From contig NZ_BDCC01000071.1 in assembly GCF_001613305.1 (NCBI RefSeq), positions 1 to 64,000 on the forward strand: 64,000 bases of DNA, in the 5' to 3' direction. The notes below the pieces were generated by a model. The model had not been told where the DNA came from. It searched no databases and saw only the letters and a program-made list of their open reading frames with translations. Each line of letters opens with the position of its first letter. The first letter of the stretch is position 1. Both the position numbers and the translations under genes were made by a program. Of the stretch, positions 4,248 through 14,300 are shown in pieces. This DNA is from Nocardia vaccinii NBRC 15922. GTDB lineage: Bacteria > Actinomycetota > Actinomycetes > Mycobacteriales > Mycobacteriaceae.

Positions 4248-4538
4248 CGAGCATGCTCCTCGGGTCGGATCCGGCGAGCGTCGCCGCCGATAGTCGATTG
4301 GCCGCCGAAACCTCGGCTGTGCGAGAGCGGGTACTCGAACATTCCAGGGCGGCGGTCCCTGATCGCAATCGGCAAAGTGGCCTTCCTTGCGTGCAGGTTG
4401 TACACGGAGTGCACCCCAGCACGGGCCGGTCGCGCAACCCGATAGCCTGAGATTGAACAATCTGCACACGCTGACCGAACTTTCGGGATGTTGGATAGGC
4501 GTAACGACCACATGCCCGACCTATATGAGGAAGATCAG
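4248..4538. promoter_or_regulatory. Divergent region between E1 operon and Lrp/AsnC gene
   Basis: About 290 bases separating the leftward E1-E2 operon from the rightward regulator. Both promoters and the regulator's binding sites must lie here, by analogy with other divergent Lrp/AsnC pairs. I see ribosome-binding sites at each end but no strong inverted repeat, so individual sites are not marked. Confidence 0.4.
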
Positions 4539-5012
4539 ATGACGCGCAGTTTCCGCGCCGACCGGATCGATGAGCGAATCCTCAGCGCGCTCATGGACGA
4601 ACCACGAGCCAGTGCCATGGCAATTTCGCAGCGAACAGGATTATCCCGCAACACGGTCCAGGCGCGGCTGGCCCGGCTCGAGGGTGAGGGTGCGTTGGAC
4701 TCGTTCCAGCGCCGTGTGGCCCCGGCGATTCTCGGCTATCCGCTGCAGGCTTTCGTTTTGGCGAATGTCACACAGCGCAAACTCGCTGTCATCGCGGCGG
4801 CCCTGGACGCCATTCCGGAGGTGGTCGAGGCGCAGGGACTCAGCGGTGCGGTGGACTTACTGATTCAGGTCGCCGCCCGCGATGCGGACGATCTGTATCG
4901 GATCGCCGGTCAAATCCTCGCGATCGACGGAGTCGATCGCACGGCGACGTCGCTGGTCATGCGTAACTTCGTGCCCTACCGGATCACATCGTTGCTGACC
5001 GCGCAGGATTGA
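4539..5012 (+). CDS. Lrp/AsnC family regulator
   Basis: A 157-residue regulator. The N-terminal HTH reads DERILSALMDEPRASAMAISQRTGLSRNTVQARLARLEGEGAL, the classic AsnC winged helix. The C-terminal half is an RAM-type sensor domain (VLANVTQRKL...IPEVVEAQGLSGAVDLLIQVAARDADDLYRI), ending with the TSLVMRNFVPYR strand seen in the family. The start at 4539 has AGGAAG upstream; 4512 is an alternative. It is divergent from the E1-E2 operon, the usual place for a regulator that responds to an amino acid whose oxoacid is the E1 substrate. Confidence 0.9.
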   Translation: MTRSFRADRIDERILSALMDEPRASAMAISQRTGLSRNTVQARLARLEGEGALDSFQRRVAPAILGYPLQAFVLANVTQRKLAVIAAALDAIPEVVEAQGLSGAVDLLIQVAARDADDLYRIAGQILAIDGVDRTATSLVMRNFVPYRITSLLTAQD

Positions 5013-5016
5013 CTAG

Positions 5017-5718
5017 ACGACACCCTCTGCCCGCCACGCCAGTGCCAGAGCCTCCAAGGAGGGGGTTACCCACCTCAACGGTGCGCCGACAGTCTTATCG
5101 ATGCTCGCCCACGCGCCGGAGGCTGCGCCGCTGGAGCGCACCATCCGGGTCGCCACCGGGGGAGCCCCGCCGTCTCCGGCGATCTTGCGGCGCATGCAAG
5201 GCCTCGGCTTCGAGGTAACTCATTTGTACGGCCTGACCGAGAGCTTCGGCCCTGCCATCGTCTGTGACTGGCGCCCGGAGTGGGACCGGCTCGACGAGGA
5301 CACGCGGGCTCGCTTCAAGGCGCGACAAGGCGTTGCCAACATCGTCTCGCTCACCGTTCGAGTGATCGGCGACGATGGCATCGAGGTGCCGCACGACGGA
5401 GTCACGACCGGGCAGATCTGCTTGCGGGGCAACAACCTGATGCTCGGTTATCTGAAGGACCACGCTGCCACCGCCGAGGCAGCACCCGATGGGTGGTTCC
5501 GCACGGGAGACGTCGGAGTCATCCACGCCGCCGGGCATGTCGAGCTACGCGATCGGCGAAAGGACGTCATCATTTCGGGTGGAGAAAACATCGCCTCCAT
5601 CGAAGTCGAACAGGTCATCGCCGATCATCCCGATGTACTCGAAGTGGCCGTCATCGGAGTTCCCAGTGCCCGGTGGGGCGAGGTACCCAGCGCCGCCGAT
5701 CCAAGGGCGCTGCGCTGA
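5017..5718 (+). pseudogene. C-terminal remnant of an AMP-forming acyl-CoA synthetase
   Basis: The frame is open from 5017 and keeps synthetase sequence: THLNGAPTVLSML, then HLYGLTES (A5 motif), LRGNNLMLGYLKD, DGWFRTGDVG (A7) and RRKDVIISGGENIASIEVE (A8). The N-terminal half with the P-loop-like A3 motif is missing. The sequence ends abruptly after VAVIGVPSARWGEVP, where normal proteins continue AFVVL, and the C-terminal lysine region is absent. It is therefore truncated at both ends. It directly abuts the AsnC stop on the left and a LysR remnant on the right, so both junctions look like deletion scars. Confidence 0.85.
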
Positions 5719-5885: not shown

Positions 5886-6182
5886 CACCTCGTCGAAGAG
5901 GGGACGCAGCCGATCGCCAGGCAGATCTGGCGTGCGGCCGAGGAGCGGGCCACCCGCAGGTGAACACGACTGAGTTCATGATCGACCGGCTCTCGCCGGT
6001 AGCGATCGCGCTCGAACTTCAACGTGCCGTTGATATTTCGGGCATCCACCGGCACGAGCCCATCATCATCGAACCTCGCCGAGTCCTCGGCGGACCTGTG
6101 GAACGATCGCACTGGAAGCCTCTCTCCGATCTGGTCCAGATTGTGCACCCAACCTGCGGCAGCCTCTGATGACCTCTGGCTT

Positions 6183-7676
6183 TCACGGCTTGTTTCCTCG
6201 GTTCTGGATGGGCCGTGCGGGGTAGAGCAGGCTTTTCTGAACCTTGCCCATCGCATTGCGTGGAAGGGATTCGACGTGGTGTATCTCTCGCGGCCGCTTG
6301 TGGATCGAGAGCGTCTCGGCGACGAAGTCGATCACGGTCCGTTCATCGGGTGGGTCGCCGACGACGAAAGCTACGATGCGTTGCCCGAGGTCAGGGTCGG
6401 CAACTCCGACGACCGCGGCCTCACTGATCCCGGGATGAGCCAGCAATGCCTGTTCGACTTCGCCAGCGCCGATTCGGTAACCACCGGATTTGATCATGTC
6501 CGTCGCCTCTCGCCCCGCTATCCGGTGGAAACCCTCTGCATCGATGGCCGCGATATCACCTGTCCGGAACCAGCCGTCGCCGGTCATCACCTCGGCGGTG
6601 CGTTGTGGGTTGTTCAGGTAACCGTCGAATAGAACGGTGCCGTAGATTTCCAGTTGTCCCAAAGATTCTCCGTCGTGGGGACACAGATCGCCCGATTCGG
6701 CGCGCAGCCGCGTCCGTACTCCGTCGAGTGGAAGCCCGACCCAGCCCGGACGGCGCTCACCGTCGCAGCGGGTGCTCACCGTGATCAGTGTCTCGGTCAT
6801 GCCGTAGCGCTCGACCGGCCGGGCGCCGGTAAGTTGGGCCAACTGCTCGAAGACCGGTACTGGCAGGGGTGCGCTCCCGGATACCAGTAGCCGGGCGGTG
6901 GACAGTGCCCGCGCCGAATCGCGATCCGCGCACACCCGCGACCAAACCGTCGGCACACCGAAGTACAGGGTGCCGGCCGCCGCCGCGTAGCGGTCGGGTG
7001 ACGGTCTCAGGGTGTGCACAAGGGGGGAGCCGACTCGGAGAGCACCCAGCACTCCGAGCACCAACCCATGCACATGGAACAGCGGAAGCCCATGTACGAG
7101 AACATCTTCGGAAGTCCATTGCCACGCCGCGGCGAGCGCGTCGATGTCGTCGGCGACCGCTTGGCGAGACACCACGACCCCCTTGGGTGCGCCTGTCGTG
7201 CCGGATGTGTACATGATCAGCGCGGTGGCGGACGGATCCCGCTCGGGGTAGACAGTGGCCGAACGCGCGGCGGTCTCGATCGGCACCGCAGGCAGATCGA
7301 GACCCTGTTGCGATTCGCCGAGCCACAGTTCCGCATTCGAGTCGCTGAGGATGTGCGCCCGTTCGGTCGGACCGGAGTCGGGGGGTACCGGAACGACCGG
7401 CACGCCAGCCAGCAGACAGCCGGCAACGGCGATCACCGTGGTCACGTCTGCCCGAGCGTCCATAGCTACGCATCGGCTGCCGGTGATGCGGTCGGCCAAC
7501 GCGGTGGCGGCGCCGTGCAGTTGCTCCCAACTCATCGACCGGTCGCCGATGGTCACCGCCGGGGTGGCCGAGTTTTCTCCCGCGTGCAGGGCGGTGAGGA
7601 GAGGCGCCGTTGTCCCCCTACCGAGCCTGTCCCCTTCGTGGCCCGAGCGGGCGTCGGATGTACCGGTTGGATTCAT
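6183..7676 (-). CDS. AMP-forming acyl-CoA synthetase, MatB-like
   Basis: A 497-residue adenylate-forming enzyme of the malonyl-CoA synthetase-like branch, activating a carboxylate to its CoA thioester in the cytosol. It is complete: A3 motif MYTSGTTGAPKGVVVS, LPLFHVHGLVLGVLGAL (strongly MatB-like), A5 ERYGMTETLI, A7 DGWFRTGDIA, A8 REATDMIKSGGYRIGAGEVE, and the catalytic lysine near RNAMGKVQKSLL. The start at 7676 has GAGAAGGGA just upstream; an in-frame ATG at 7694 is less likely. It reads in the same direction as the isochorismatase-fold gene 200 bases upstream. The substrate cannot be read from sequence; malonate or methylmalonate is only a family guess. Confidence 0.88.
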   Translation of the reverse strand: MNPTGTSDARSGHEGDRLGRGTTAPLLTALHAGENSATPAVTIGDRSMSWEQLHGAATALADRITGSRCVAMDARADVTTVIAVAGCLLAGVPVVPVPPDSGPTERAHILSDSNAELWLGESQQGLDLPAVPIETAARSATVYPERDPSATALIMYTSGTTGAPKGVVVSRQAVADDIDALAAAWQWTSEDVLVHGLPLFHVHGLVLGVLGALRVGSPLVHTLRPSPDRYAAAAGTLYFGVPTVWSRVCADRDSARALSTARLLVSGSAPLPVPVFEQLAQLTGARPVERYGMTETLITVSTRCDGERRPGWVGLPLDGVRTRLRAESGDLCPHDGESLGQLEIYGTVLFDGYLNNPQRTAEVMTGDGWFRTGDIAAIDAEGFHRIAGREATDMIKSGGYRIGAGEVEQALLAHPGISEAAVVGVADPDLGQRIVAFVVGDPPDERTVIDFVAETLSIHKRPREIHHVESLPRNAMGKVQKSLLYPARPIQNRGNKP

Positions 7677-7876
7677 GACAAGTCCCTTCTCCACGCCGGA
7701 CCCGAACAGGTCGTTCGGTCGGCCGATGCACTGGCAGACGAGTGCGTGGCTGTAATCGTTTCCGTTCGGGGTGACGAGTATGTGGGTATGACCCGGACCC
7801 CCGCGACCCGGGACTCGATCGCCGGTACCTCGACGGCTCGAGCGCGTTTTGCTCGACGCCTGATCCGGCTCGACGG

Positions 7877-8494
7877 TCAGGCGCCCTCAGCTGGTGGCGT
7901 GAACGCCGCCAGCAGCTCGTCGCTGGTCACGACCTCGGCGAGCAGGTCCATTGTCTCGAGCGACGCCTTGTGTGCGCTCTGCGAGAAAGTCGCGGACGCG
8001 TCGGAAATGATCAGCGTGCGGTAGCCGAGGTCGGCGGCCTCCCGCGCGGTCCCCTCAACGGTGAGGTTGGTCGCCACCCCGAAGATCGCGACGGTGTCGA
8101 CGCCCGCTCCGCGCAGCACCGCGTCGAGCAGGGTGCCGTGGAAGCCGGATGTCCGCTGGTGCGTCAAGATGAAGTCACTGGCTTGCGGCTTGACCTCATC
8201 GATGATGGCCGCGCCCGGCGTTCCCTCGACCAGCACGCCCTTGCGCTTGACCAAATCCTGGTGGGGTGCGTTCCCGACCATGTCGGGATAGCCTGGCTGG
8301 TACGCGATTCGCGTGTACACGACCTTCACGCCCGCGGCACGGGCGCCGTCGAGCACGCGCAGTATGGCGCCCTGGAAGCCGGCTCGTTGCGGCTCCGTGG
8401 GGAAAAAGGCGGCGAAGGGACGATCGGCTCCGACGATGTCGTTCTGCAGGTGCGCTGCCACGATCGCGGTGCGCGCAGGATCCAGCGGGGTCAT
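7877..8494 (-). CDS. Isochorismatase-fold protein lacking the catalytic triad
   Basis: A 205-residue protein with the cysteine-hydrolase/isochorismatase fold along its length. Normal members have Asp in (D)xQNDF, Lys in the K...SAF/GT segment and Cys in ATN(x)CVE. Here these places read AHLQNDIV, LTHQRTSGFHGTLLD and GVATNLTVEGTAREAADLGY, so Asp, Lys and Cys appear replaced by His, His and Thr. The scaffold is otherwise well kept with no frameshift, so this looks like a divergent or non-hydrolytic member and not decay. A TGTGATAT-type operator lies just upstream, linking it to the GntR-like sites at 35-44 kb. Confidence 0.85.
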   Translation of the reverse strand: MTPLDPARTAIVAAHLQNDIVGADRPFAAFFPTEPQRAGFQGAILRVLDGARAAGVKVVYTRIAYQPGYPDMVGNAPHQDLVKRKGVLVEGTPGAAIIDEVKPQASDFILTHQRTSGFHGTLLDAVLRGAGVDTVAIFGVATNLTVEGTAREAADLGYRTLIISDASATFSQSAHKASLETMDLLAEVVTSDELLAAFTPPAEGA

Positions 8495-8545
8495 GACGAA
8501 GTCCTCTCATCGGTGTGCCGTGGGGCGTCATCGCTCGGCCTCTAG

Positions 8546-8602
8546 TTGTGATATTTTATGGACTATCAAAAAACTACCCGATCCGCGATGTGAAATATCA
8601 CA
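8546..8602. promoter_or_regulatory. Operator pair of TGTGATAT/ATATCACA type
   Basis: TTGTGATATTTTA (8546-8558) and the near-palindrome TGTGAAATATCACA (8589-8602) lie between the leftward isochorismatase-fold gene and the rightward DUF3500 remnant. The same motif recurs at 8936, 35037, 35883, 38871 and 43810. GntR regulators of the FCD class often bind short AT-centred palindromes of this sort, and two such genes are in this window. Assignment to one of them is inference. Confidence 0.65.
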
Positions 8603-8604
8603 CT

Positions 8605-8800
8605 GGTACGCACACGATCGACCAGCCGACCAACGGTTCCGGCTTCTCCACCACGCTCGGCCTGTTCAGCGCGATGACGTTTGTTCGATGAGTTCACCAC
8701 CGAGCAGCGCGCTCGCGCGTTGATGCCGTTCGGTCACGAGGACCGGGACAACCGCGCGCACCTTCGCCTCGGCTGCCGCGGCTTACCAACGCCCACACCG
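8605..8800 (+). pseudogene. DUF3500 N-terminal remnant
   Basis: Translation gives TIDQPTNGSGFSTTLGLFSAMT, then after a one-base insertion FDEFTTEQRARALMPFGHEDRDNRAH. This matches the first ~45 residues of the intact DUF3500 protein at 44047 (TIDRPEDGSGFATTLALFSAMTLFDSFTAAQRERAVLPFDSEDRDNWDF) nearly position by position. The remaining ~320 residues are gone. It follows an operator of the same family as its intact paralogue, so the promoter-gene pair was once present here. The 130 bases after it show no gene. Confidence 0.8.
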
Positions 8801-8935
8801 GAGGCTGGAAGCCCGCCCCCTCCCGCAGCAGCCCCACCGCATTTCACCTGCTCACAGCATGATCAATCGTCACTCAAAACGAGCTACTCCCGTCTTGCAT
8901 CGTGCGACCTTCAAAGCTGACACAGTAGGGCAAGG

Positions 8936-8973
8936 TTGTGATATCTTAACTCAAGATACTTGAGATATCACAA
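8936..8973. promoter_or_regulatory. Inverted-repeat operator before VanB remnant
   Basis: TTGTGATATCTTAA (8936-8949) and TTGAGATATCACAA (8960-8973) form an inverted repeat with one mismatch per arm and a 10-base spacer. It is the best-formed copy of the TGTGATAT motif in the window, about 30 bases before the GTG start of the reductase remnant. Confidence 0.7.
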
Positions 8974-9000
8974 TGCTCGCTGCCATGGAGGAGGCTTGGA

Positions 9001-9560
9001 GTGGGTCAGGCACGTACCCCTGAGAGCCGAGGGGGATCTCGTTTTGTCCACGAGCAACTGTCGGTTGGCGATGTGATTTCGGCCCGAAGGCCGCAGAGTC
9101 ATTTCCAACTTGCGGAGGCGAGCAACTACTTGCTCACCGCGGGCGGCATCGACATAACTCCGATCATCACGATGGTTGCGCCCGTGGACCGACTCGGCGC
9201 GAATTGGCGCCTGGTGTACGAGGGCGGCAGCGGAGCAGCATGTCATTCGCTGCGGAGTTGAGCGTTGGCCATCGCGACAATGTGATGACTCATCCTCAGG
9301 ATGAGGAAGGTCTCATCGATCTCGACAGCATTCTCGGGCAGTCACAAGTCGTCGACACTTTGGTGTATGCCTGCGGACCGGCAGCGCTGCTCGACGCCGT
9401 TGCCGAGCGGTGCAAGAACTGGCAGCCGGACACTCTGCATGTCGAACGATTCACTTCGGTGTCGCTCGAGAAGGCGACCACTGGGAGATCATCCGAGGTC
9501 ACGCTTGCGCGGTCGGGCATGACGCTCACCGTCGCGGGTGAACAGTCCATTCTCTGTAGG
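9001..9560 (+). pseudogene. VanB-type oxygenase reductase remnant
   Basis: Remnant of the reductase of a two-component Rieske aromatic O-demethylase/dioxygenase (vanillate demethylase reductase, phthalate dioxygenase reductase family). The first frame has RGGSRFVHEQLSVGD, then SHFQLAEASNYLLTAGGIDITPIITM, where the family has AGGIGITP, so one glycine is Asp. After a frameshift near 9230 come SSMSFAAEL, DTLVYACGPAALLDAV and HVERFTS, then the start of the 2Fe-2S domain (LARSGMTLTVAGEQSIL). The N-terminal FMN part and the cysteine-bearing 2Fe-2S domain are missing. GGAGGAGG sits before the GTG. The 370 bases to the next gene hold no supported gene, only the palindrome at 9800. Confidence 0.85.
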
Positions 9561-9799
9561 TCCGACTGGATTCGTCACGGGGGGGCGCCACCGCCATCCC
9601 CGCGGGCCGCTCCCCCGAGGGCCTGCCAGTGTGCAGGTCAATGTCCGATGTTCGCGGACCGCACCCCGCTGCGGCTGGCCGAACTACTCGAGCAGAGTAT
9701 CAGCGGCTTCCAGCCACCGAAAATAGGTCCAACGCGTTCATGCCAGCGGCGCGGGCGGCCTCCCACTCCTCCCCCGACAGTAGATGCGCCCGCGGGTCA

Positions 9800-9820
9800 C
9801 GTCACCTCGACGAGGTGACG
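9800..9820. promoter_or_regulatory. Perfect palindrome upstream of Ni/Co permease
   Basis: Arms CGTCACCTCG and CGAGGTGACG flank a single A, a perfect 21-base palindrome about 110 bases before the permease start. There is no T-run after it, so a terminator is unlikely. A metal-responsive repressor site is one possible reading. Confidence 0.45.
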
Positions 9821-9931
9821 GCGAAGATATTGCGGTACTCGAGGTGTCGATGACACTGTTCCGACAGGCACGAAATGTAGGCGGCACGATCCACCGCTTC
9901 CACCGTAAGTGCTGGAAAGGCCGACCAACCC

Positions 9932-11062
9932 ATGGCTCCGCCCGAAAACCCTTCCCTCACACCGGCTGCCGCCGGTTCCGGATCGCCGCGGCCGGCCGTG
10001 CGCTGGGAGCGGCGTGACTGGATCCGCACCAGCGGTCTGTTCGCCACGATCACCGCCCTGCATGTGATCGCTTTCGGCATCCTCATCACACTGGTGGTGC
10101 CGCATCACTACACCGTCGGCACTCAGGTGTTCGGTCTCGGACTTGGCGTGACCGCCTATACCCTGGGCATGCGCCACGCCTTCGACGCCGACCACATCGC
10201 CGCCATCGACAACACCACCCGCAAACTCATGGCCGACGGCAAACGCCCCGTCTCCGTCGGCTTCTGGTTCGCCCTCGGCCATTCGACCGTGGTCGTGCTG
10301 CTGGCCGCGGGCACCGCCGCCGGGGCAAAGCTGGCCACCAACCTCACCAGCGACGACTCGGCCACCCGCCACGACCTGGGCATCGCCTCGACCGTGGTCT
10401 CTGGCGGGTTTCTCTATCTGATCGCGGCACTGAACCTGGTGGCGCTCGCCGGGATCTGGCGGGTGTTCAATGCCATGCGCGCAGGCGAATTCGACGAGCA
10501 CGAACTCGAGCGGCATCTGGACAACCGGGGGTTCCTCAACCGGATTCTCGGGCGGCTGACCCGCTCGATCACCCGTCCTGGCCAGATGTATCCGGTCGGA
10601 TTGCTGTTCGGCATCGGCCTCGATACCGCCACCGAGGTGGCGCTGATGGTGATGGCCGGGTCCGGCGCCGCGGCCGGGCTGCCGTGGTACGCGATCATAT
10701 GCCTGCCGCTGCTGTTCGCGGCCGGGATGAGCCTGTTCGACACCCTCGATGGAACGTTCATGAATTTCGCCTACCACTGGGCCTTCTCCAACCCGGTCCG
10801 CAAGGTGTATTACAACCTCACCATCACCGGCCTGTCGATCGCGATCGCGTTCCTCATCGGCTCGATCGAATTGGTCGGGATCCTGCACGACCAGCTCGAC
10901 CTGACCGACCCGGTCAGCGCGGGGATCTCCGGGATTGATTTGAACAACGTCGGATTCATCATCGCGGGCCTGTTCGTCGTGGTGTGGGCGGTCGCGCTCA
11001 CCTACTGGAAGCTGGCTAAGGTCGAACATCGCTGGCGGCCCGAACCCGACAGCATCGACTGA
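9932..11062 (+). CDS. Nickel/cobalt permease, NiCoT family
   Basis: A 376-residue integral membrane protein of the HoxN/NixA/NicT family that imports Ni2+ or Co2+. It shows the signature LGMRHAFDADHIAAIDNTTR in TM2, LGHSTVV, LFGIGLDTATEVALM and AAGMSLFDTLDG, with about eight hydrophobic segments and a charged loop after residue 170. Its length is normal. The ATG at 9932 has GGAAAGG upstream. It is a single-gene unit with a 21-base palindrome before it. Ni versus Co selectivity cannot be decided from sequence. Confidence 0.93.
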   Translation: MAPPENPSLTPAAAGSGSPRPAVRWERRDWIRTSGLFATITALHVIAFGILITLVVPHHYTVGTQVFGLGLGVTAYTLGMRHAFDADHIAAIDNTTRKLMADGKRPVSVGFWFALGHSTVVVLLAAGTAAGAKLATNLTSDDSATRHDLGIASTVVSGGFLYLIAALNLVALAGIWRVFNAMRAGEFDEHELERHLDNRGFLNRILGRLTRSITRPGQMYPVGLLFGIGLDTATEVALMVMAGSGAAAGLPWYAIICLPLLFAAGMSLFDTLDGTFMNFAYHWAFSNPVRKVYYNLTITGLSIAIAFLIGSIELVGILHDQLDLTDPVSAGISGIDLNNVGFIIAGLFVVVWAVALTYWKLAKVEHRWRPEPDSID

Positions 11063-11266
11063 CCCTCGCCCTGGTGTACGCGGCAATGTCAACCTGCCGG
11101 GGGTTGACGATACGCATGCGCCGCATGCAGATCGGCTACGGGCGCGTCTCGACGCTCAATCAGCGTGCATCGAGCGACCTACCACCGCACCCAGGGCGTG
11201 CGAAAGTGTTCGAATGCTGAATCGGTGCTTGCCACGCGGATCCGAGGAACCGTCCCTATAGCTCAG

Positions 11267-11286
11267 GCGTATGCCGAGGCATACGC
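11267..11286. promoter_or_regulatory. Perfect 20-bp palindrome before kinase-LuxR gene
   Basis: GCGTATGCCGAGGCATACGC is a perfect palindrome 75 bases upstream of the regulator gene at 11361. It fits a dimeric repressor or autoregulatory LuxR-type site. Nothing else is seen in the 300-base gap except a weak hairpin (GTCAACC/GGTTGAC, 11088-11108) after the permease. Confidence 0.5.
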
Positions 11287-11360
11287 TGGCTATCAGCGAT
11301 AGATGTTGACGCGCGTGCTACCCGTTGCCGGGGAACACGCCAACGGATGGTGCATAGCCG

Positions 11361-14300
11361 ATGAGCGAGGAAGACCCGTCCCGGACGCTCCGTGACGCAT
11401 CCACGCCTGTCACCGAGGAGCTGAGCGCGGCTGGGTTCGCCGATGCCGAGGAGATCGGACGTGGCGGGTTCGGTGTGGTCTATCGCTGCACCCAGTCCGA
11501 GCTGGACCGGACGGTGGCGGTGAAGATCCTCGCCGCCGAACCGGACGAGGAGAATCGGGAGCGGTTCTTCCGGGAACAGCGGGCGATGGGCCGACTGACC
11601 GGCCATCCCAACATCGTCACGGTCCTGGAGGTCGGTGTCACCGCGAGCGGGCGCCCGTTTCTGGTGATGCCATATCACCCGTTGGGCTCGCTGGATGCAA
11701 GGATCCGCGGGCAAGGCCCGCTGCCGACCGAAACCGTATTGTGGATCGGGGTAAAGATCGCCGGGGCGCTCGCGACCGCGCACCGGTTGGGCATCGTGCA
11801 TCGGGACGTGAAACCCGCAAACATCTTGCTCACCGATTACGGCGAGCCCGCATTGACCGACTTCGGCATCGCACACATACCTGGGGGTTTCCAGACAAGC
11901 GCGGGCACCGTGACTGGGTCGCCGGCGTTCACCGCCCCGGAGGTGCTCGAGGGCGAGGTTCCTACCCCGGCCGCGGACGTCTATGGGCTGGGTGCCACCC
12001 TGTTCTGCGCGTTGACGGGGCATGCGGCGTTCGAACGGCACAGCGGGGAGAAGGTGGTCACCCAGTTTCTGCGCATCACCACCCAGCCGGTACCGGACCT
12101 GCGTGAGCAAGACATCGCCGATGACGTGTCCGCCGTGGTGTCAACGGCGATGAGCCGCGACCCTGGCGAGCGGCCCTCCGCAGCAGCACTCGGGGAGGCG
12201 ATCCGGCAGGCGCAGCGCTGCCATGGGTTCGCGGTCGAGGAGATGGCACTACACATCGAACCGGCTCGCGAGCACCGCGGTCCGATGCCGCAGCCGCAGG
12301 AGTGGCGCCCGCCGACGGCACCGGTGGTGGTTCGGCACGGCGCTTTGCCACTCGAGTTGACCAGTTTCGTCGACCGCCGTACCGAGGTGGCGAAGGTGAG
12401 GAATCTGCTGTCCTCGGCCCGGCTGGTGACGCTCACCGGGGTCGGCGGGGTCGGCAAGACCCGGCTGGCGCTGCGGGCTGCGGCGAGCGTGCGCCAGAAG
12501 TTCGCCGACGGGGTGTGGCTGGTCGAGCTGGCCGACGTCTCCGACCCGTCGCTGCTGATCGACGTGGTGGCAGCCTCCCTTGGCCTGCGCGACGTGTCCG
12601 TGCGACCGTTGCAGGAGGTGGTGGCCGAGTTCCTGTCCGCGCGGGAATTGTTGCTGGTGCTGGATAACTGCGAGCAGTTGGCGGCCGCGGTGGCGAAGCT
12701 GGTCGAAACCTGGCTGCGGACCTGCCCACACCTGCGGATCCTGGCCACGAGCCGCGAACCTCTGAACATCGGCGGAGAGGCGGTGTTGCGGGTGCCATCG
12801 CTGATGGTGCCGGACCTGGATTGTGAGCCGTCACCGCGCGAGCTGCCGCGATACGACGCAGTCACATTGTTTGCCGACCGCGCGACCACGGTGGTGCCGG
12901 GTCTTGAACTCTCGGAGGCCGACAAGGTCATCGCGGCCCGGATCTGCGCCCGGCTGGATGGACTACCGCTGGCGATCGAGTTCGCCGCGGCCCGGGTGCG
13001 CACGATGTCTCCCGAGCAGATCCTTCAGCGCCTCGACGACCGATTCGCGCTGCTGACCCGCGCCAACCGCACCGCGCCCACCCGGCAGCAAACCCTGCGA
13101 TGGTGCATCGACTGGAGTTACGAATTGTGCACCCCGGCCGAGCAGCGGATGTGGGCGCGGCTGTCGGTATTCGCCGGCGGCTTCGAACTCGACGCCGCCG
13201 AACAGATCTGCGGCGCTGATCCGGCGCCGGACAGTCCGCTCGATGTGCTGTCCTCGCTGGTGGACAAGTCGATCCTGATCCGCAGCGAGTCCAATGGAGT
13301 GGTGCGGTTCCAGATGCTGGAGACGGTGCGCGACTACGGCCGGCAGAAACTGCGGAACTCCGGCGAGGACCAGCAGATACGGCACCGGCACCGCGACTGG
13401 TACCAGCGGCTGGTACTGGACGCCGAGGACGGCTGGATCAGCGACCGGCAATTCGACTGGATCGCCCGACTCGACCGCGAGCAACCCAACCTTCGCGTGG
13501 CACTTGAATACTGCCTGAGCCAGGATGGCCAGGAGGCGGCCGTAGCCGGCCTGCGCACCGCGAGCGGACTATTGGGTTTCTGGATGTTCCGAGGTCTGGT
13601 AGGTGAAGGTCGACGCTGGCTCGACCGCATTCTTGCCCGTCCGTGCGCCCGCTCGGTACCTGACCGCGTCAAGGCGCTGCACGCCAGCACCGTGCTGGCG
13701 ACGATGCAGGACGACCGCCAGGCGGCGACTGCCTTGGTGGAGGAAGTGCACGCGCTCGCGGAACAGGCTCCCACCCCCGTGAACAAGGCGCTCGCCGCCT
13801 ACGCCGATGGTATCCTGGCCATGGATCTCGGAGATCTTGCGCGCGCATCTTGTTCCCTCGAACGCGCTGTCGAGGTGTTCGGTGCGAATCGGCCAGTCTT
13901 TCTGCGCATTGCTGCACTTTCCCTGCTTGGTTGGGTACAGGCCATGCACGGCGATACACAACGGGCGATCGAGATCAACGAGCAAGTACTTTCGCTCACC
14001 GAAGCGTGCAGCGAAACGGGCTTTCGGGCGGCCGCACTGTGGGGTCTCGGCGTTACGGCGTGGCACCAGGGCGAGCGGCAACAGGCACGAAAGTTGCTCG
14101 AGGAAGCATTGCGGGTCAACCGGAAGGTACGCAACCCAATCATGGCTGCCTTCGGGCTCGAGGTGCTGGCCTGGACCATCGACGCTGACAGTGATGCCGA
14201 ACGCCGGGCCGTACTGATGGGAGCTGCGGAGCAATTGTGGCAGTCCGTGGGCAGTCTCGAGCGCAACCTCCCGGGACGATCGCACTATCACGACGACTGC

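Follow-up and report, generated by a model that had tools for sequence, protein, structure and literature searches.

The closest described systems are members of the isochorismatase fold. TrtA and RutB carry an Asp-Lys-Cys triad, according to the accessible portions of PMC7948467 and PMC12553813. The Cys nucleophile is not common to all known members: EntB, PhzD and YecD lack it and have Gly at this position (PMC12553813 and PMC10213629, accessible portions), and EntB and YecD keep the Asp and the Lys (PMC12553813, same portion). In CrcA (PA1677, PDB 8CIB), the Cys is replaced by Ser, the other active-site residues are reported to be kept, and the protein antagonises Crc (PMC10213629, accessible portion). 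The putative isochorismatase 3kl2 of Streptomyces avermitilis has Glu for Asp, retains the Cys and has its Lys shifted one residue further on. None of the titles and beginnings of abstracts surveyed describes a conserved clade in which all three residues are lost throughout.

The gene studied here lies in a 64-kb window (the whole stretch of Nocardia vaccinii DNA that was analysed). Its product resembles BiuH, RutB and TrtA in its fold, its similar length, its GxxTxxxV loop and the Gln two residues after the first catalytic position, and is 28% identical to RutB, but it has His-His-Thr where TrtA and RutB have Asp-Lys-Cys. It shares with EntB, PhzD and YecD the fold and the absence of the Cys nucleophile, but the clade to which it belongs has also lost the Asp and the Lys. 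The likeness to CrcA lies in the fold and in a replaced Cys, and 3kl2 is the best PDB match in both structure and sequence. The features of the locus are as follows.

5101..5718, acyl-CoA synthetase piece (NCBIfam/Pfam matches)
6183..7694, minus strand (same strand as the gene), acyl-CoA synthetase of the NF005858 subfamily, downstream neighbour (NCBIfam/Pfam)
7877..8494, minus strand, isochorismatase-fold gene with H15/H112/T145 replacing Asp/Lys/Cys (ORF, Pfam, PDB/structure matches, alignment)
8060..8062, minus strand, Thr145 codon, catalytic Cys position (sequence and alignment)
8159..8161, minus strand, His112 codon, catalytic Lys position (sequence and alignment)
8450..8452, minus strand, His15 codon, catalytic Asp position (sequence and alignment)
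8547..8602, no strand, inverted repeat TGTGATATTT / AAATATCACA with arms of 10 nt and a spacing of 36 nt, putative operator
8936..8973, no strand, second palindrome with arms of 14 nt, 93% complementary
9001..9818, plus strand, VanB/PDR-type reductase relic, broken and truncated (tblastn match, 54%)

The gene is an open frame of 205 codons with an ATG start and no internal stop, and its product is 94% identical over 205 residues to a protein of N. arthritidis, its nearest named relative. This agrees with the initial annotation, which had described an intact, unshifted gene, and rules out a frameshift or an annotation slip. The protein passes the gathering score of PF00857 (Isochorismatase; 129.3 bits for a cut-off of 27, residues 9-192 covering positions 1-174 of the 175 of the profile). 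No NCBIfam model scored above its cut-off; the nearest were the equivalogs of BiuH (biuret amidohydrolase) and RutB, at 78 and 73.2 bits against curated cut-offs of 370 and 377.95, respectively. The genome encodes eight Isochorismatase matches, with His at the Asp site in one, Asp or Glu in five, and two partial matches that do not include the residue. There was no RNA match in an Rfam scan of window positions 6000-12000, no defence match with PADLOC, and no viral relative in three scans of viral_contigs, one using the clade profile and two using other members of the fold.

In profile alignments with BiuH, TrtA and YecD, the three motifs are free of gaps, H15 pairs with the Asp and H112 with the Lys. 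T145 pairs with the Cys of TrtA in 6xix and with Gly in YecD; its partner is Ser in the two Cys-to-Ser mutants 6xjm and 6xj4. All three catalytic residues are thus replaced, as had been claimed. A triad that is displaced but present, which the initial annotation had named as refuting this claim, is ruled out for the nucleophile: none of the 205 residues is Cys, so it cannot merely have moved elsewhere in the chain. The protein lacks the Cys as well as the Asp and Lys of the Asp-Lys-Cys cysteine hydrolases, and it has His, His and Thr instead of the Asp, Lys and Gly of isochorismatase (EntB/PhzD). We predicted the structure with AlphaFold2 from an alignment of four sequences (mean pLDDT 65, weak at residues 65-97 and 115-117). 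The model matches 3kl2 (Z 19.3 over 190 residues, rmsd 3.1, with the alpha/beta fold), RutB (19.1), VibB with isochorismate (18.2) and PhzD (18.0), and the best Foldseek E-value is 8.3e-13. Together with the PF00857 score, these matches to solved members confirm the isochorismatase fold. In this predicted model, the overall fold is clear, whereas loops and side-chain geometry are of low confidence.

A search for homologues, which the initial annotation had proposed, found relatives that share the His at the Asp site: they make up 46 of the 93 rows of our alignment, the other 47 being without it. The alignment began with 132 ORF rows, five loci known to be copies having been left out beforehand; 42 rows were dropped (fragments, divergent rows, wrong ORFs, near copies, and repeats of one gene taken from a wider region), and three of these loci (L023, L025 and L032) were restored from an extraction made earlier. 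Within the clade, His15, Ala141 and Thr142 are invariant (46/46), and Arg62, Asn75 and His175 are each found in 45 of the 46 rows. The window protein has the His at the Asp site together with R62, N75, A141 and H175. By comparison, the two other catalytic positions vary: position 112 is His in 25 rows, Asn in 17, Ser in two and Gly in two, and position 145 is Thr in 21, Ser in 19, Ala in three, Val in two and Cys in one. Since His15 is present in every row and position 145 is variable, the fixed element is the histidine, and the family pattern does not require a Thr nucleophile. A clade member of A. tumefaciens (L102, 5977-6585) is H/H/C, with Cys at its usual site and His at both other sites.

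A quick tree of the 93 rows was built without the three catalytic columns and without bootstraps, with a midpoint root for drawing only. On the free-search tree the 46 His rows require two changes, and a tree constrained to unite them has a log-likelihood 24.6 above that of the free search (p-AU 0.822); the sequences are compatible with a single origin of the His. The clade groups with six Asp/Lys proteins that lack Cys (D/K/V, D/K/A and, for YecD, D/K/G; support 87, not starred), which fits a loss of Cys before that of Asp if the root lies outside. An order-wide search gave a match at E<=1e-15 in 171 of 397 genomes, and the best 30 loci have His at the Asp site in 16 cases, own gene included. 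Within the genus, a match at E<=1e-28 occurs in 3 of 150 genomes, again including our own, and one Nocardia genome has three copies. A class-wide search with a profile of nine relatives matched 17 of 394 genomes at E<=1e-38, some of the matches being non-His, and in a sample of the phylum the 29 loci read, which are among the best by E-value of 129 matches, all had Asp at position 15. Sixteen pairs of Rhodococcus or Prauserella relatives have dN/dS values of 0.14-0.28, the substitution pattern of purifying selection. The His-type clade is real, conserved and non-canonical, and the window gene is not a one-off.

Other combinations occur in the fold. Fifteen of the 46 clade rows form an H/N/T subgroup (L023, L025-L028, L032, L050-L055 and L058-L060; one row is H/G/T), most of which have a DNQ(K/R)LSGLA-type motif and GVATNLTVEQTAR. 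Seven loci (L005 from our genome, L030, L031, L033, L034, L035 and L040) have Glu/Arg/Ala at the Asp/Lys/Cys sites, with a RxHGxGPMxGT motif in six of the seven.

The neighbourhoods of clade members point towards the degradation of aromatic rings. In Prauserella (L010 and L011), the order is GntR regulator, LLM gene, clade gene, hydratase, FAD monooxygenase, hydrolase, extradiol dioxygenase, acetaldehyde dehydrogenase and aldolase, the dioxygenase being a 3-carboxyethylcatechol 2,3-dioxygenase (496 bits for a cut-off of 291). In plasmids of Rhodococcus and Gordonia, the GntR-LLM-clade gene set lies at most 10 kb from a 3-carboxyethylcatechol dioxygenase gene in seven of the eight regions read, and in five of these seven an alcohol dehydrogenase gene directly follows the clade gene; R. 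opacus DSM 44186 has a different layout with two clade copies. Clusters of this dioxygenase type are presumably linked to 3-(2-hydroxyphenyl)propionate. A DNA search with the pair of LLM and clade genes matched at least 80% at one place in 13 of 15 matching plasmid records (the strain of the query being counted twice). The LLM protein resembles models of F420-dependent LLM proteins, with every score below cut-off, and is not close to RutA (BLASTP E 0.056), which rules out a pair of the RutA-RutB type. The organisation is different in pCAR1 and A. tumefaciens, where the clade gene lies between a Rieske beta subunit gene and an SDR-type dehydrogenase gene and overlaps both; entB likewise overlaps an SDR-type gene, entA. 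The two H/H/V members (pCAR1 and Variovorax) both adjoin Rieske oxygenase genes. In B. arboris, the clade gene and the Rieske beta subunit gene share an ATGA overlap and are in different frames, so a fusion of the two is ruled out. Two plasmid regions (L063 and L070) each encode two divergent copies.

We quantified these associations by scoring a region as positive if a Rieske/VanB gene, or three or more of six meta-cleavage genes, could be recognised in it at one common threshold, with proteins from seven plasmid loci and the window as references. Ring-cleavage or Rieske-type genes were found in 17 of the 29 case regions (clade members outside H/N/T), in none of the 20 control regions, which come from three genomes and surround other genes of the fold, and in none of 11 H/N/T regions. 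The contrast between cases and controls has a Fisher p of 9e-6, and of 2e-5 (13 of 22 regions positive) when the six case loci that supplied references and the window are removed; both values overstate the contrast because the case regions include close relatives and are not independent. The H/N/T subgroup, with none of its 11 regions near aromatic clusters, probably has a different role. The aromatic, LLM and alcohol dehydrogenase genes sought were absent at the threshold from L066, L077, L078, L079, L081, L082 and the window, and Pfam scans of some neighbours in L077, L078, L079 and L081 named no ring-cleavage gene. In L066, the Streptomyces plasmid relative (10001-10606) is H/G/A and lies beside a haloalkane dehalogenase gene. 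Taken as a whole, the neighbourhoods suggest an enzyme that is altered but working, rather than a dead one.

The window copy itself may be orphaned, i.e., an intact gene in a decayed catabolic island. The reductase relic falls below the stricter limit of the neighbour count, and its two pieces in the window have no Pfam match, while its counterpart in N. arthritidis keeps the Fer2 domain. The LLM gene of the clade has no match at E<=1e-40 in the genome. Compared with N. arthritidis, the 115 bases by the start codon are 96% identical, the sequences then diverge, and later blocks are 83-97% identical. The Nocardia pair differs in no more than 19 codons, which give a dN/dS of 0.30-0.58; of the genes nearby, the acyl-CoA synthetase has a lower value (0.25) and NicT a similar one (0.26-0.53). 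TGTGATAT occurs five times in the window when 0.30 occurrences are expected, a number reached in none of 100 shuffles, and four of the five copies sit at 8547-8602 and 8937-8972. The first repeat lies 53-108 nt upstream of the start codon; N. arthritidis has almost the same sequence in this region, the distal arm differing by a single change. Across the 9.2 Mb genome, TGTGATATN(4-34)ATATCACA matches nowhere but at the palindrome at 8936..8973, which is degenerate in N. arthritidis. These palindromes look like putative sites of a dedicated regulator, for which the AsnC-type protein encoded at 4488-5012 is one candidate.

We propose that the clade consists of active accessory catabolic enzymes that would work by acid-base catalysis through His, with no intermediate bound covalently to a Cys, a reading to which we give a probability of roughly one half. 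His15, where the Asp used to be, would serve as the acid-base residue, and the retained backbone of the GVATN loop and Gln17 would keep the substrate in place or stabilise an oxyanion or an enolate. Water would attack directly, or a proton would be shifted, with no covalent adduct to Cys. The scheme would resemble that of isochorismatase proper (EntB, PhzD), with His for Asp and His or Asn for Lys; it is because isochorismatase also works without this Cys that the absence of the covalent step seems plausible. An oxygenase of ring degradation probably supplies the substrate, in the form of an ester, lactone, enol or hydrated intermediate. One guess is a lactone, ester or enol of a pathway that ends in cleavage of the 2,3-dihydroxyphenylpropionate type, and a dihydrocoumarin/indanone pathway can be guessed at as its source. 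The literature searched contained no activity for any clade member. Of the enzyme with a new His/Thr centre that the initial annotation had offered as one option, the new centre remains the best supported reading, but the centre is one of His and not of His/Thr, given the constancy of His15 and the variation at positions 112 and 145. A hydroxyl at position 145, which 40 of the 46 rows provide as Thr or Ser, may still contribute.

Several alternatives compete with this proposal. Having lost all three catalytic residues, the protein could be a pseudoenzyme with a binding or regulatory role, in which the old pocket senses a ligand or the surface binds a partner. CrcA, a regulatory member of the fold with Ser for Cys that antagonises Crc (PMC10213629, accessible portion), is a precedent for such a pseudoenzyme or ligand sensor, and the TGTGATAT repeats make tight regulation plausible. 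However, His15 and a number of other residues hardly vary, the genes that it overlaps in two Rieske operons encode an oxygenase and a dehydrogenase rather than regulators, and there are divergent copies in L063 and L070 and three copies in one Nocardia genome, so that we regard this role as rather unlikely. A hydrolase in which Thr/Ser145, activated by His15 or His112, is the attacking residue would account for the Thr or Ser found in 40 of the 46 rows at the very site of the Cys nucleophile. Such a mechanism seems unlikely given the Ala, Val and Cys of the six other rows, the Rieske oxygenase genes that adjoin both members with Val, and the inactivation of TrtA by a Cys-to-Ser change (PMC7948467, accessible portion).

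The two His at pocket positions could also bind a metal, together with the nearly invariant His175 or another residue. We consider this very doubtful: position 112 is Asn, Ser or Gly in 21 of the 46 rows, His175 is also common outside the clade (25 of 47 rows), and the low-confidence model shows no readable metal site. Finally, the window copy might be the remnant of the decayed island, with no present function. The fragmentary neighbours (the acyl-CoA synthetase piece and the broken reductase) are in line with such a relic, as are the rarity of matches in the genus and a stretch that is missing from the window and in which N. arthritidis has a weak FAA-hydrolase fragment (23.1 bits for a Pfam cut-off of 23.9). 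Yet the reading frame is intact, and N. arthritidis has almost the same repeat-bearing region by the start codon although the sequence further upstream differs, which makes a functionless remnant highly improbable.

Returning to the catalytic reading, we tentatively extend it, at somewhat less than even odds, to an enzyme class, absent from the literature surveyed, that would have discarded Asp, Lys and Cys, would rely on an invariant His, and would have entered ring-degradation operons on more than one occasion, namely the meta-cleavage clusters of Actinomycetota and the Rieske operons of Pseudomonadota. A lactone or enol hydrolase feeding pathways of the 3-(2-hydroxyphenyl)propionate type would be an example. 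In each of the 11 annotated plasmid regions read with a clade member, "cysteine hydrolase" forms part of the product name, although a Cys occupies the catalytic position in just one of the 46 clade members. If these proteins are enzymes, this name would be wrong for the whole clade, the isochorismatase fold would accommodate another kind of chemistry, and a step that is still unassigned in several plasmid-borne pathways of aromatic degradation would become testable.
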